Shown here one piece after another: positions 21,655-32,979 of a stretch of 64,000 nt of DNA. The notes under the pieces are model-generated. The model ran no database searches. It worked only from the letters and a program-made list of their open reading frames with translations, and was not told the origin of the DNA. The stretch's first letter is position 1; each line of letters begins with the position of its first letter. The translations under genes and the position numbers were made by a program. Origin of the DNA: Fervidicoccus fontis Kam940 (GTDB lineage Archaea > Thermoproteota > Thermoprotei_A > Sulfolobales > Fervidicoccaceae); the NCBI RefSeq assembly GCF_000258425.1, contig NC_017461.1, positions 496,001 to 560,000 of the forward strand, in the 5' to 3' direction.

Positions 21655-23079
21655 ATGAATGATTTTGATGTTGCGATTGTTGGAGCGGGTCCTGCAGGCT
21701 TGTTTGCTGCAATAGAGCTGGTAAAAACCGGAAGCGGAAAATTAAACATAGCTCTGATTGATAAAGGATTTAAGGTGGAGAAGAGAATATGCCCAATTAC
21801 TGTGAAAAGGGAAAAGAGCTTAGTATCTAACAATGACAGAAGCATTAACTGTCAGGCATGTCCAATTTGCCATATAATGTACGGCATTGGAGGTGCTGGC
21901 ACGCTTAGCAGTGGGATCATTAATTTGAGGCCCGATGTAGGCGGAGATCTTGACAAGCTTCTCGGAGACTGGATGAAGGCTGAAGAGCTTATAAACTATA
22001 TTGACAAGCTGTTCATGGAGTTCGGCGCACCGGAGGACAGCTTGATTGTTCCGAATGATAAAAAATCAAGGATAATAGAAAGGCTCGCAGCGAAGGCAGG
22101 AGCAAAATATATCCCGACGCCGCAGAGAGTTCTCGGAACAGATGTAATGGTAAAGGTGATAAGCAACATAACGGGTTTCCTAGAGAAGAACGAAGTAAAG
22201 ATCATGGAAGGCACCGATGTAAAAGATTTGAAAAAAGAAAATGGGCAGATTAAGCTAATTACGGATAAAGGGGAGATTTTTGCGAAAAAGGTCCTGCTCG
22301 CTCCTGGAAGGGGAGGGGCAAGATGGTTCCATGACTTAGCACAGAAAATAGGGATAGATATAGAGCCTGGTCCCCTAGATATCGGTGTGAGAGTGGAAAT
22401 ACCATACTATATAACAGAGCATATTACTAGCATAAACCATGACCCAAAAATAGTAATGTATACGAAGTTTTATGATGACAAAGTTAGAACATTTTGCACT
22501 AACCCACACGGCTTTGTTCTTAAGGAATATTATGATGACGGCACTGTAGGAGTGAACGGAGAGACTTACAAAAACTTAAAGTCAAAGAACACGAACTTTG
22601 CACTCCTAGTAACTTTAAAACTGACGGATCCGTATTCAGACGTCTTAGAATTTGGAAAATCCATAGCTAAAATGGCTACCAAGGTGGGAATGGGGAAGCC
22701 AATCGTTCAGAGAGTTGGAGATCTTGAGAAGGGAAGGAGGAGCACTTGGGAGAGAATTGGCAGGAGTGTAATTACTCCAACGCTCAAATCCGTAACGCCA
22801 GGAGACATAAGCTTAATTTTGCCTTATAGGGTTGTCTCAAACATTCTTGAAGCTTTAAGCAGGCTCGAAGAAGTTTATCCGGGTGTCTCATCTCCTCAGA
22901 CTCTGCTCTATGCTCCAGAGATCAAGTATTACGGAGTAAAAGCAAAAGTCACGCCTTCACTTGAAACCAATATAGATAACATTTACGTCGCAGGCGATGG
23001 AGCAGGACTTTCTAGAGGAATAAATGTAGCAGCTTCTACCGGAGTAATTGCTGCCAGAGCGATATTAGGTATTTTATAA
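21655..23079 (+). CDS. FAD-dependent dehydrogenase (COG2509-like)
   Basis: 474 residues. Dinucleotide-binding VGAGPAGLFAAIEL at the N-terminus, a cysteine set (Cys46, then CQACPIC at 66-72), IMYGIGGAGTLSSG, and a C-terminal FAD segment VAGDGAGLSRGINVAAS. The pattern matches uncharacterised FAD dehydrogenases of the COG2509 type (from memory). The four cysteines could hold an Fe-S cluster or zinc. AGGAGGT lies 11 nt before ATG 21655, one base after the purA stop; longer frames start inside purA and are unlikely. Co-transcription with purA is unexplained: no known purine step needs it. Confidence 0.8.
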   Translation: MNDFDVAIVGAGPAGLFAAIELVKTGSGKLNIALIDKGFKVEKRICPITVKREKSLVSNNDRSINCQACPICHIMYGIGGAGTLSSGIINLRPDVGGDLDKLLGDWMKAEELINYIDKLFMEFGAPEDSLIVPNDKKSRIIERLAAKAGAKYIPTPQRVLGTDVMVKVISNITGFLEKNEVKIMEGTDVKDLKKENGQIKLITDKGEIFAKKVLLAPGRGGARWFHDLAQKIGIDIEPGPLDIGVRVEIPYYITEHITSINHDPKIVMYTKFYDDKVRTFCTNPHGFVLKEYYDDGTVGVNGETYKNLKSKNTNFALLVTLKLTDPYSDVLEFGKSIAKMATKVGMGKPIVQRVGDLEKGRRSTWERIGRSVITPTLKSVTPGDISLILPYRVVSNILEALSRLEEVYPGVSSPQTLLYAPEIKYYGVKAKVTPSLETNIDNIYVAGDGAGLSRGINVAASTGVIAARAILGIL

Positions 23080-23271: not shown

Positions 23272-24009
23272 ATGGAACCATCATTTTTTCCTATATATGT
23301 TGGGAAGAGCAAGAATATTTATAAACATCCTTATGATGAAAAACTCCTGATAATGGAGTTTAAAGACGATGTAACAGCTGGAGATGGCGCTATTCGAACG
23401 ATAGCTCCTCATAAGGGAATAATTAATGCGAGGACCAGCCATTTCTTTTTCAAATTGCTGGAAGGGAAAGGTTTAAAAACCCATATGGTAGAATTTAACG
23501 GCAACAACAAAATGATAGTAAAAAGGTTGAAAATGATCCCTATAGAATTCATCGCAAGGAACTACGCGTATGGATCCCTTCTCAAGCGATTGCCTCTTTT
23601 CAAATTAATGCAACCCCTGGATCCTCCTTTAATAGAGTTTCACTATAAAGATGACAGCCTACATGATCCTCTAATTACGCATGATGATATAATCCTTTCG
23701 GGTCTTTTAACAAAAGGACAATTGGGAAAAATAGTCAGTATAACTGCAGATATCAATATGATATTAAGAACCTTTCTCGAAGAAAAAGGATTGAAGCTAG
23801 TAGATATAAAGCTTGAATATGGTTTCGATGAAAACGGCGAGATAATACTTGCTGATGAAATTACAGGCGATGGATTCAGAGTAGTCGATGAAAGAGGAAA
23901 TCATCTGGATAAGGAGATCTTCAGAAAGACTAAGGATGTAAAGTTACTTATAGAATCCTATATGAAGCTCGCCAGTATATTAGGTATAGATTTAAGCGAC
24001 ATTAAGTAA
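23272..24009 (+). CDS. purC: SAICAR synthetase
   Basis: 245 residues, normal length. VGKSKNIYKHPYD (ATP-binding start), FKDDVTAGDGA, VKRLKMIPIEFIARNYA and LADEITGDGFRVVD are the family hallmarks. It condenses CAIR with aspartate. It follows a 192-bp AT-rich gap that must hold the promoter of the long purine operon; GAGGAAATAAAA precedes the ATG. The next gene starts within 20 nt, and the run continues almost without gaps to 37487. Confidence 0.95.
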   Translation: MEPSFFPIYVGKSKNIYKHPYDEKLLIMEFKDDVTAGDGAIRTIAPHKGIINARTSHFFFKLLEGKGLKTHMVEFNGNNKMIVKRLKMIPIEFIARNYAYGSLLKRLPLFKLMQPLDPPLIEFHYKDDSLHDPLITHDDIILSGLLTKGQLGKIVSITADINMILRTFLEEKGLKLVDIKLEYGFDENGEIILADEITGDGFRVVDERGNHLDKEIFRKTKDVKLLIESYMKLASILGIDLSDIK

Positions 24010-24026: not shown

Positions 24027-25286
24027 ATGCCATTGGGATTTTTGGGATTGGTCGCATTTGAAAATGACTGGGACATTTTTCCATATGCATCATATGGTTT
24101 GCTTGCATTGCAACACAGGGGTGGAGAAAGACAGATCATATGCGGAGATTTCAAGGGTTCACTTAAATGCATGAACCTTAATGAATATGAAAGTGATAAA
24201 AATGAAATTAAAATGAGCTTTATAGCTGCAACAATGAACGGAACCTCTGGAAGCATTGAGGAAGTTCAGCTAGATGGCGAAAAAATTATAGCTATATCTG
24301 AATATGAAAGAGATACTCTCAGAGACTTGCTTAGTGAGATTATCAAGCTTAAGGATGAGAAAGTCACTAAACTTAAAAAATTAATAGATGAATACAGCGA
24401 ACATGAAGTCCCATCTTTCATGGCAATTACTAATAGAAACGAAGTAATAGTGTGGAGAAGCCCAAACGGAATTACACCTTTGTCCATAGGCAACTATGGA
24501 TTTGACATGGTTCTTTTCTCCTCGGAAACATCAGCAATAGATGTTTTAGACTGCGATTTCAGAAAGCACTTAATTCCTGGAGAGGTTGCGTACGCTTCTC
24601 CAAAAATTTTCAAGATCTTCAAAGGTAAAAACTCAAAAGAAAAAGGATCCATATGCCTCTTCGAGCTATTATATACAGCGAGACACGACTCAATAATTGA
24701 TGGAGTTCCTGTATATGATTTCAGAAAGGAACTTGGAAAAGAACTTGCTTTAAACTTTTCTCATGATGTCGATATAGTAGTCGGCGTCCCCGAAACTGCA
24801 TACCCTTATGCTATAGGGTTTTCACAGGCGATAAGAAAGCCGTTTGAACTAAGCTTTATTCCAACTGCAGGAAGGATGAGGTCTATGCTTAAAGCTTCAG
24901 GGATAGAAAGGCTGATCGCCGTCCACTTGAAAATGAACCCTGTAAAAAGCGCAATGGAGGGAAAAAGGATCGCGCTAATAGATGATAGTATGGTAACCGG
25001 GTCAACTATAAAGACTGTTTCGCAAATACTGAGGAATAGAGTTGGCGTGGAGGAGATACATCTTTTAATAGCCAGCCCCAAAATTGTTTCAAGTTGCCCA
25101 TACAGGATCTTTCCACTAGAGGAGAGGAATCTCATCGCTTCTAACTTGGAAGATACAAATATTACAAGATATCTTGATGTTGATAGCCTTACATGGCTAA
25201 GCAATGAAAGCGTTAAAAAAGTAGCAGATAAGTACGGAATAAGTTTCTGCGATAGGTGTTTTAACAAAAATTCTGAGGTGCTCTGA
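24027..25286 (+). CDS. PurF paralogue lacking the catalytic N-terminal cysteine
   Basis: About 419 residues. The N-terminal glutaminase fold is recognisable (GLLALQHRGGERQI, VVWRSPNGITPLSIG), but the MCGI start of active PurF is replaced by MPLGFLGL: leucine stands where the nucleophilic cysteine should be. The phosphoribosyltransferase half keeps the PRPP loop ALIDDSMVTGST and a C-terminal CDRCF resembling the cluster cysteines of PurF. It may make phosphoribosylamine from free ammonia, or regulate the true PurF at 31555. ATG 24027 sits 12 nt after GAGGG; ATG 24015 is adjacent to it and less likely. Confidence 0.85.
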   Translation: MPLGFLGLVAFENDWDIFPYASYGLLALQHRGGERQIICGDFKGSLKCMNLNEYESDKNEIKMSFIAATMNGTSGSIEEVQLDGEKIIAISEYERDTLRDLLSEIIKLKDEKVTKLKKLIDEYSEHEVPSFMAITNRNEVIVWRSPNGITPLSIGNYGFDMVLFSSETSAIDVLDCDFRKHLIPGEVAYASPKIFKIFKGKNSKEKGSICLFELLYTARHDSIIDGVPVYDFRKELGKELALNFSHDVDIVVGVPETAYPYAIGFSQAIRKPFELSFIPTAGRMRSMLKASGIERLIAVHLKMNPVKSAMEGKRIALIDDSMVTGSTIKTVSQILRNRVGVEEIHLLIASPKIVSSCPYRIFPLEERNLIASNLEDTNITRYLDVDSLTWLSNESVKKVADKYGISFCDRCFNKNSEVL

Positions 25287-25289
25287 AAA

Positions 25290-26795
25290 ATGAGGGTTTT
25301 AATTGTTGGATCAGGCGCTAGAGAGCATGCGCTGGCGAAGCTTTTCATGGATAGTACTATGCTTTCAAGAATTTACGTTTTTGCTGATTATTTAAATCCT
25401 GGCCTAAAAAGGGAGACTGAGAAAACAGGAGGTAGTATTGTTATAATGAATACGAATAATGCTGAAACTGTGAGAGAGAAAGCTAAGGAGGTAAATCCAG
25501 ACTTAATAGTAATAGGAGGGGAGGAACCCCTTTTCATGGGAGTTTCCGATGCTTTAAGAGAAGAGGGTTTTTTTGTTTTTGGAGCATCTAGAAAGAACGC
25601 AATGATCGAGCAAAGCAAAGTTTTTGCAAGATCATTCATGTGGAGGAATGAGATACCTGGTAGGCTTTTCTTCCAAGCATTTAAGGATCTTAGCGAAGCA
25701 GAAGAATTTATGAAATATGCAGGTGATGTCGTAGTTAAGCCTGCTAGACAAGCAGGAGGGAAGGGAGTTAGGGTTATAAGAGATACTAAAGCTTATCTTT
25801 CCGAAGAAAAGAGCTCTGTAAAGATGAAAGTTGCGGAAGATGTTTACAAGCAGCTTAGCGGATATGATGATATCGATTATAAAATACTTCTTGAGCAGAG
25901 AGCTGAAGGTGTTGAATATACTTTGCATGTTATCTCTGATGGATTTTATTCGATACCTCTTCCAATAATTCAGGATCATGCCCACGCTTTTGAATATGAC
26001 ATAGGACCTGAAACTGGAGGTATGGGGTGCATTTCTGGTCCGGGCATGTATCCGCCTTTTCTAACAAAAGAGGAGTTCAACAAAACAAAGGAAATTGTTG
26101 AAAAAGTTCTGGAGAACTTGAAGAAGGAGACAAAGGAACCATACGTTGGCGTTTTGGCAGGACAGATGATGTTAACTTGGGTATGGGGACCTACTGTGAT
26201 CGAATTCTACAGCAGATTTGGAGATCCTGAAATTAGTGCCTTATTGCCGTTAGTAGAGGGAGACTTCTTAGAATTCGTTGATAAAGCATCAAGAGAAAAG
26301 CTATCGAGTGCTAGCTTGAAATTCAAAGATGATGTTTCTGTAGTAGTTAAAGCAATAGCTCCGTTGGGTTATCCTTTATATAGAAATGAAGCATCAAACC
26401 ATCCTATCACTATTGATGAGAAAAAGATTAGGAACCTCGGTTGCGAAGCTCTATACGGAAGTGTCGAACAAAAAGATGGAAAAATGCTGACAAAAGGGTC
26501 AAGAGCTATTGAGATAGTTTGCTACGACAGCAAATATGAAGTTGCATATGAAAAAAGCGAAAAAGCTTCAAATCTTATAGAAGCTGAAGATGGGTGGCCA
26601 CTTTTTTACAGAAGCGACATAGGCTCGCTGAGCATGATAAGAGAAAGAACTAAAGTCGCTGAGAGGATGAGGAGGGCATACAAATATAGAGAGAAAAAGG
26701 GGTTGCTTGGAGAGTTCTTTGTTTGGTTGCCTGAGAAAGGGATCATTTCTAACCCATTATTAGGATTTAAAAAGGTGAGCGAAAGTGAGAAATAG
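25290..26795 (+). CDS. purD: Phosphoribosylamine-glycine ligase (GAR synthetase)
   Basis: 501 residues, longer than bacterial PurD (about 430) but usual for crenarchaea. Starts MRVLIVGSGAREHALAKLF. ATP-grasp motifs VVKPARQAGGKGVRVI and DIGPETGGMGCISGPGMYP, plus a metal-binding FYSRFGDPEIS, are in place. It joins glycine to phosphoribosylamine. It begins 3 nt after the PurF paralogue, which supplies or influences its unstable substrate, an order that may help channel phosphoribosylamine. GAGGTG lies near the start. Confidence 0.94.
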   Translation: MRVLIVGSGAREHALAKLFMDSTMLSRIYVFADYLNPGLKRETEKTGGSIVIMNTNNAETVREKAKEVNPDLIVIGGEEPLFMGVSDALREEGFFVFGASRKNAMIEQSKVFARSFMWRNEIPGRLFFQAFKDLSEAEEFMKYAGDVVVKPARQAGGKGVRVIRDTKAYLSEEKSSVKMKVAEDVYKQLSGYDDIDYKILLEQRAEGVEYTLHVISDGFYSIPLPIIQDHAHAFEYDIGPETGGMGCISGPGMYPPFLTKEEFNKTKEIVEKVLENLKKETKEPYVGVLAGQMMLTWVWGPTVIEFYSRFGDPEISALLPLVEGDFLEFVDKASREKLSSASLKFKDDVSVVVKAIAPLGYPLYRNEASNHPITIDEKKIRNLGCEALYGSVEQKDGKMLTKGSRAIEIVCYDSKYEVAYEKSEKASNLIEAEDGWPLFYRSDIGSLSMIRERTKVAERMRRAYKYREKKGLLGEFFVWLPEKGIISNPLLGFKKVSESEK

Positions 26796-31554: not shown

Positions 31555-32979
31555 ATGTGCGGAATAAGCGCATTTTTAGATGAAGCTACATTTAAAGAAG
31601 CGATTGAAGAGATCGCGATGATGCTTTATAGCTTACAGCATAGAGGCCAGGAAGCTTTTGGTATATCAGTTTTAAGCAAAGACAGAAAATTCCTCGTTAT
31701 GCGATCTAGGCATCAGCTTTTCTCCCTGTTTTTAAAATCGTGGAAAAAGGAGCTGATAGAGAAAAAAGTGATCGGTGGAATAGGCCATGTCAGGTATTCC
31801 ACCACAGGAAGTTACAGTGCACCAAGCCAACCGGTTTTGCTTGAATCTAACGATATAAAATTTAGCTTAGCTTTCAACGGAACAATTGCAAATTATAAAG
31901 AGCTTGATTCAAAGCTAGCAAGAAGAAAAGGTGAATACAGGATCTCCCCTAAAATTAAGAATAACGATTCTATAACTTTAGCCAACGTCCTTTATTCTCT
32001 GTACATTGACAATGAAAAAGACATAGTGGAAGCGTTAAGATATCTCCCCAACTATGTAATAGGAGGATACAGTATTGTTGTTGAAACCAACGAGCCTAGA
32101 ATTGTTATCGCAAAGGATCCTTATGGATTTAGGCCTCTTTCGTACTCTTACGAGTCCGGTTTTTATGCAGCATCAGAGAATCCTGCACTTGAGCTTATAG
32201 GAAAGAAGTCTTGGAAGGAAGTTCTTCCTGGGGAAATAGTCTCTTATGATGGAGGAAAACTTGAAAGAATATATAGCGAAAGAAAAGTCGAGCCTTCGCC
32301 ATGTTTATTTGAATACGTTTACTTTAGCAGATCCGACTCCGTTTTCAATGGAATAAGCATATATGATGCGAGAATTAATATGGGCAGATATCTTGCAGAA
32401 TATGCTCCTGTAGATGGAGATGTAGTAATACCTGTACCTGATAGCGGCAGAGTGATAGCACTGGGTTATAGCAAAGCATCAGGGATCCCGATAGAAGAAG
32501 GCATAGTTGTTAATAAATACCTCGGAAGGGGATTCATCACTCCCCCGTTTCAAAGACCACTCGTTACTAAAATAAAGTACAATATTGTTGAGGAGGCTGT
32601 AAGAGGGAAGGAAGTTGTCTTGATAGATGATTCGATAGTAAGGGGCACTACAATGAGCGATCTTGTACCAAAGCTTAAATTAAAAGGCGCAAAAAAAGTG
32701 CATATAAGAATAGGCTCACCTCCTTATAAATGCCCATGCTATATGGGGATAGACGTTCCTACAAAGAGTGAAGTAATTGCTAAAAACGACGAAAAAGTGA
32801 TCGCGAAAATGATTGGTGCCGACTCTCTCATATACAACTCACTAGATAATCTAATAAAAGCTGTACCGCTGAGAAACCTTTGTCATGCATGTTTTTCATG
32901 CAAATATCCTTTTTCTGAGAAGAGCTCATGTGAATATATAAAAATGTTGATAGATAGAGGAGGGAGAAATGAGATATAA
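31555..32979 (+). CDS. purF: Amidophosphoribosyltransferase (PurF)
   Basis: About 474 residues. With ATG 31555 the protein starts MCGISAF, so the catalytic cysteine becomes residue 1 after methionine removal. Further on: LYSLQHRGQEAFG, GHVRYSTTGSY, DPYGFRPLSY, PRPP loop VVLIDDSIVRGTT, and CPCYMGID plus LCHACFSCKYP, which carry Fe-S-type cysteines as in Bacillus PurF. It makes phosphoribosylamine from PRPP and glutamine. The active partner of the cysteine-less copy at 24027. An ATG at 31549 would add two residues and block maturation. Confidence 0.95.
   Translation: MCGISAFLDEATFKEAIEEIAMMLYSLQHRGQEAFGISVLSKDRKFLVMRSRHQLFSLFLKSWKKELIEKKVIGGIGHVRYSTTGSYSAPSQPVLLESNDIKFSLAFNGTIANYKELDSKLARRKGEYRISPKIKNNDSITLANVLYSLYIDNEKDIVEALRYLPNYVIGGYSIVVETNEPRIVIAKDPYGFRPLSYSYESGFYAASENPALELIGKKSWKEVLPGEIVSYDGGKLERIYSERKVEPSPCLFEYVYFSRSDSVFNGISIYDARINMGRYLAEYAPVDGDVVIPVPDSGRVIALGYSKASGIPIEEGIVVNKYLGRGFITPPFQRPLVTKIKYNIVEEAVRGKEVVLIDDSIVRGTTMSDLVPKLKLKGAKKVHIRIGSPPYKCPCYMGIDVPTKSEVIAKNDEKVIAKMIGADSLIYNSLDNLIKAVPLRNLCHACFSCKYPFSEKSSCEYIKMLIDRGGRNEI

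Follow-up and report, generated by a model that had tools for sequence, protein, structure and literature searches.

Purine synthesis is taken to need just one enzyme for its first committed step. In 2011 Brown et al. described second copies of PurF in Crenarchaeota, named them PurF' and proposed that they are an ammonia-dependent enzyme; mutants of PurF with Cys changed to Ala or Ser retain ammonia-dependent activity (PMC3261824). The PurF' genes of that study are second PurF-like genes of pur clusters, without the N-terminal cysteine, forming a separate cluster and present with PurF as one copy each per genome. These features apply to the gene described here, from a 64,000-nucleotide stretch (the window) of the Fervidicoccus fontis Kam940 genome, although in the window purF lies seven genes away and is not adjacent. 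As a member of the PurF' family the window copy is not, therefore, new in kind. A literature search, with most subscription journals outside its reach, found no later study of PurF'. What is new is that the family is extended to further archaeal phyla and that its residue conservation is quantified. A strictly conserved copy with a dead glutaminase in small genomes, and again in Clostridia, suggests that the step differs across much of archaea.

PurF itself (EC 2.4.2.14) is known from the structures 1ecf and 1ecc (E. coli), 1gph and 1ao0 (B. subtilis) and 6lbp (Arabidopsis). Its two-domain fold is common to PurF', as are the PRPP loop, the PPi loop, the loop residues Arg332 and Lys349 and the four Fe-S cysteines of the B. 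subtilis type. Unlike PurF, PurF' has neither the glutaminase nucleophile nor the glutamine-binding residues, its ammonia-channel residues are altered and Arg371 is replaced by Thr or Ser in about 60% of sequences (47/79).

The second purF gene of the window

The features of the locus are collected in Table 1. The genes between purF' and the canonical purF are, in order, purD, purT, purE, purS, purQ and purL, and the genome, a single contig of 1,319,206 bases, has exactly two PurF-like genes, both in the pur operon. An earlier, sequence-only reading of the window had reported this reading frame, with purD immediately after it and a PurF starting MCGIS further on, and its gene order agrees with the coordinates found.

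Table 1 Features of the purF' locus (positions in the window)
Feature	Position	Strand	Remarks
purC	23272..24009	+	directly 5' of purF'
purF' gene, glutaminase-dead PurF paralogue, 419 aa (P0001)	24027..25286	+	basis: ORF, profile match, tree, AlphaFold2 model, Foldseek
N-terminal class-II glutaminase-like (Ntn) domain	24027..24626	+	without Cys1, R73, Y74, N101, G102, D127
LQHRG motif	24108..24122	+	R31-G32 (E. coli R26-G27) in 79/79 PurF'
Phosphoribosyltransferase (PRTase) domain	24648..25262	+	conservation equal to that of PurF
Cys210, predicted Fe-S ligand	24654..24656	+	B. subtilis PurF C236; 75/79 PurF'
PRTase flexible (catalytic) loop	24855..24941	+	motif F277/T280, R285 (E. coli R332), K302 (E. 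coli K349)
PRPP loop DDSMVTGST	24981..25007	+	D319, D320, S321, G325 invariant, T327 in 78/79; Arg371 replaced by Thr
Cys357, predicted Fe-S ligand	25095..25097	+	B. subtilis C382; 79/79 PurF'
Cys408-x-x-Cys411, predicted Fe-S ligands	25248..25259	+	B. subtilis C437, C440; 79/79 each
purD	25290..26795	+	starts at 25290, 3 nt past the purF' stop
canonical purF (MCGIS), 474 aa (P0002)	31555..32979	+	seventh gene 3' of purF'

The window PurF' starts MPLGFLGL. That it is a PurF copy without the catalytic cysteine, as had been claimed earlier, is true of any possible start: VRGMYLE are the sole in-frame residues between the preceding stop and the methionine and are free of cysteine, so an alternative start restoring the cysteine was ruled out. 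A GAGGG stretch 12 nt upstream of the ATG makes 24027 a plausible start.

Against TIGR01134 the window PurF' scored 169 bits (E = 2e-49), below the equivalog cut-off of 350 bits, and the canonical PurF downstream scored 354 bits. The two proteins are 30% identical over 286 residues. A single-chain AlphaFold2 model of PurF' had a pLDDT of 89 and a pTM of 0.89, with the lowest pLDDT values (62-76) in the flexible loop; when the model was submitted to Foldseek, PurF structures ranked first, with TM-scores up to 0.85. The E-value, the identity and the structural matches show that the resemblance to PurF is not due to chance.

An FAD-dependent oxidoreductase is encoded beside the purine genes of the window, at 21661-23079. 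Its family matches are weak (the best being TIGR00275), and a homologue adjoins purine genes in three distant archaeal loci (L064, L161, L162).

Residue conservation in the two domains

Residues were counted in an alignment of 79 PurF' sequences, using E. coli numbering. Cys1 is missing in 78/79, being replaced by Ala, Ser, Thr, Pro, Gly or another residue. R73, Y74 and T76 are gone across the family, N101 has become Asp in 62/79 and D127 is kept in 24/79. In the window protein position 1 is Leu and positions 73, 74, 101, 102 and 127 are Met, Asn, Glu, Tyr and Thr; a Thr aligned with T76 stands where the alignment is uncertain and most PurF' have a gap. By comparison, every full-length row of canonical archaeal PurF has all of R73, T76, N101, G102 and D127. 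An MNG in the window protein was considered as an oxyanion motif and rejected as a chance occurrence, as it sits in a shortened loop and is missing from other PurF'. The ammonia-channel positions Y74, F334 and I335 are N, M and L in the window PurF', and F334 is absent from all 79 sequences, with Ala or Met in its place. Roles for Y74, R73, T76, G102, T333, I335, R342, K349 and R371 in PurF are given in PMC7953260.

On these residues PurF' almost certainly cannot use glutamine. The glutaminase half had earlier been described as kept in outline; this stands as far as a folded domain is concerned, about 25 residues shorter than that of PurF, but R73, Y74, N101, G102 and D127 have been lost in addition to the cysteine. 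In one archaeal family (f21; L158, L159, L166, L179) PurF' is shortened to about 380 residues with a strongly diverged glutaminase-like part, and three of these four loci have purD next to it.

Both domains of PurF' are under strong purifying selection. Over 18 close pairs, which are not independent of each other, the median dN/dS of PurF' was 0.09 for the glutaminase-like domain and 0.047 for the PRTase domain, the corresponding values for PurF being 0.13 and 0.054. In 61 genomes with both copies the mean pairwise identity of the PRTase domain was 0.49 for PurF' and 0.48 for PurF, and that of the glutaminase domains 0.34 and 0.38, respectively. These values imply that the glutaminase-like domain of PurF' is not decaying.

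In PurF, R332, K349 and R342 sit in a loop that closes over PRPP (PMC7953260); the roles of the PRPP and flexible loops are also described in PMC7056826. The window PurF' keeps the PRPP loop, the PPi loop and the Arg and Lys of the flexible loop (D319, D320, S321, G325, T327, P255, T257, R285 and K302), and DDSMVTGST and the C-terminal CDRCF were found as the sequence-only reading had them. Across the family, Y258, R261, D263, P302, T304, R332, K349, D366, D367, S368 and G372 are present in 79/79, T374 is kept in 78/79 and R342 is matched by Arg or Lys throughout. These PRPP-site residues, whose loss would have spoken against the earlier reading, are conserved in the orthologues, and retention of PRPP binding is predicted with good confidence. 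Archaeal PurF is laxer than PurF', with K349 in 76/102 and R261 and D263 also less strict. A division of labour in which PurF loses K349 where PurF' is present was considered and rejected: the lysine is kept in 19/34 PurF without PurF' and in 57/68 with the partner. Residues invariant in PurF' only are F11, Y23, G158-F159-D160, G253, F277, T280, L301 and P358.

The loss of the N-R-Y motif of the catalytic loop in PurF is mostly limited to a Sulfolobaceae-like group (f11; L019, L030, L047-L060), whose canonical PurF is without N-R-Y-V-G (e.g. RTISSK-RSFIMP) and still has R332, F334 and I335.

C236, C382, C437 and C440 of B. subtilis PurF are its Fe-S ligands. With four cysteines aligned to these, the window PurF' fits the [4Fe-4S] subtype of PurF, and a cluster is predicted. 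Ser replaces the first predicted Fe-S cysteine in the PurF' of family f8 (L017, L018, L020, L021).

Gene neighbourhood, spread and ancestry

Gene order was read in 48 representative PurF' loci. PurD is a same-strand neighbour of PurF' in 43/48 by script (39 downstream, 4 upstream) and in 44/48 at the upper reading, which bears out the link to PurD proposed from the window. In L175 the upstream PurD of the tally was an artefact of a long ORF, and the order on re-reading is purF-purF'-purD; in L176 and L177 neither purF nor purD adjoins purF'. PurF neighbours PurF' in 39/48 loci (35 on the same strand upstream, 4 on the opposite strand). PurD stays beside PurF' although PurF has moved off in the window and in L061, L141, L142, L166 and L179, and PurF stays without an adjacent PurD in L152, L167 and L159; the difference between PurD and PurF is small and the events few.

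A profile made from 24 PurF' sequences was searched against 397 genomes of the window's phylum; how complete a genome is, how a MAG is labelled and where contigs end all affect the presence calls. The co-occurrence of both copies, which had been put forward as a check, was seen in 104 of the 106 genomes with PurF', with two matches each. The remaining two (G206 and G212) gave a strong PurF' as their single match, and these genes are at contig ends. PurF occurs alone in many other genomes, and neither copy was found in 117/397 at the search threshold. Among named genome contigs, PurF' was present in those of Ignisphaera, Desulfurococcaceae, Aramenus, Methanomethylicota, Bathyarchaeota, a Nitrososphaeria MAG, Theionarchaea and the Asgard Candidatus Jordarchaeum, as labelled in the records; in phyla other than that of the window these are single records.

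In a PRTase-domain tree of 135 rows, obtained by a quick IQ-TREE search and rooted at the midpoint, a branch with an SH-aLRT of 100 sets 56 PurF' rows, including the window protein, apart from all archaeal and bacterial PurF. PurF' is, on this tree, an ancient paralogue of PurF forming one clade, and the midpoint root leaves the duplication undated. PurF rows from genomes with and without PurF' intermingle, which indicates repeated loss or gain of PurF'.

The PurF' of Jordarchaeum (L064:4495-5829, the same as L221), which lies inside the PurF' clade, has kept the cysteine (SKERCGVIG), N101 and G102 and has lost R73. It is an apparent intermediate, and a cysteine without R73 suggests that glutamine binding can go ahead of the nucleophile.

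A second PurF with Ser at position 1 was found in Clostridia MAGs from rumen and gut (L087, L089 and L106, the same as L224, L223 and L222; L233-L252). Ser1 is present in 20/20 sequences and Asp101 in 19/20, with Gly74 in most and Ser102, and the PRTase domain is nearly canonical. The gene is near purN-like and purH-like genes. A Cys-bearing PurF is present elsewhere in all three genomes that were read, and more than one PurF match was obtained in 22/24 genomes with a close homologue, the cysteine state having been read in three. By their residues the Ser copies presumably lack glutaminase activity. This family is separate from PurF', and so PurF sisters with a dead glutaminase would have arisen beside a live PurF at least twice. 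Mlab_0150 of Methanocorpusculum labreanum likewise has Ser in the place of the cysteine and is the second PurF of a genome with a normal one; it is a recent duplicate of that organism's own PurF and falls outside the PurF' cluster (PMC3261824).

Possible roles of PurF'

The reading given most weight, with a probability of roughly 0.4, is that PurF' works alongside PurF and PurD as a phosphoribosylamine synthase that uses ammonia. With its glutaminase domain dead yet kept as a folded domain and its PRPP site intact, it would form phosphoribosylamine from PRPP and ammonia, the ammonia being either free or let go by the neighbouring true PurF. The unstable phosphoribosylamine would then be passed to PurD, probably within an assembly of PurF, PurF' and PurD. 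Catalysis, ammonia as the donor and a physical complex are what we infer here from sequence. The retained PRPP residues, the loss of Cys1, the adjacency of PurD, purifying selection, co-occurrence with PurF and the parallel in Clostridia support the ammonia synthase. Ammonia-dependent activity of yeast PurF, and ammonia moving between neighbouring molecules, have been discussed (PMC12017579), and uptake by PurF' of ammonia lost by PurF would fit this. Against it, a stand-alone enzyme would be expected to take the place of PurF now and then, and no such case turned up among the genomes with PurF'; that PurF is constantly present speaks rather for a role as its partner. The channel-lining residues are changed (Y74 lost, F334 to Ala or Met), and the residues invariant in PurF' only hint at a specialised role outside the model.

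The main rival, tentative but to be taken seriously, is a regulatory subunit that would form mixed oligomers with PurF, bind PRPP or purine nucleotides at its intact site and set the activity of PurF without turnover. Encoding together with PurF, the 104/106 co-occurrence with exceptions at contig ends, and the retained two-domain fold and Fe-S cysteines all suit such a subunit, and the frequent replacement of Arg371 with the loss of F334 and Y74 could end catalysis and spare ligand binding. However, a nucleotide sensor would need neither K349 nor R332, the invariant residues through which the closed loop acts on PRPP, K349 being kept more strictly than in archaeal PurF; these residues favour PRPP chemistry over pure nucleotide sensing. 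It is improbable that PurF' is instead a hand-over protein, binding phosphoribosylamine made by PurF, shielding it from heat and passing it to PurD. PurD is its most regular neighbour, even where PurF has moved away, and transfer from PurF to PurD has been discussed for E. coli, where no stable complex was found (PMC10912719); the residues on the pyrophosphate side, however, would not be needed for holding phosphoribosylamine. An explanation by heat alone is weakened by Bathyarchaeota MAGs whose record titles point to soil and which also carry PurF'. There is an equally slim chance that PurF' is a phosphoribosyltransferase that links PRPP to some amine, but not to ammonia. The flexible-loop motifs found in PurF' only and the smaller residue at F334 could open an acceptor pocket, but PurF' is regularly placed among purine genes and no known orphan step fits. 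Loss of the catalytic cysteine and the glutamine-binding residues might also point to a decaying duplicate without function. This is contradicted by the dN/dS values, on which a pseudogene was rejected, and by one ancient clade across many lineages with invariant residues of its own, and its probability is close to nil.

A wider statement of the ammonia-synthase reading would be that archaea of several phyla, and independently some Clostridia, have a two-gene PRPP amidotransferase, in which a glutamine-splitting PurF is joined by a dead-glutaminase sister carrying out PRPP chemistry with ammonia, the archaeal sister passing its labile product to PurD. In this general form the proposal is unlikely, if some way from negligible. 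The residue map makes the function of PurF', a question raised in 2011, directly testable.

Class-II glutaminase domains that are kept without glutaminase activity have precedents in beta-lactam synthetase and carbapenam synthetase, relatives of AsnB, whose synthetase domain and chemistry are other than those of PurF'. Both were among the Foldseek matches of the PurF' model, with TM-scores below 0.3.
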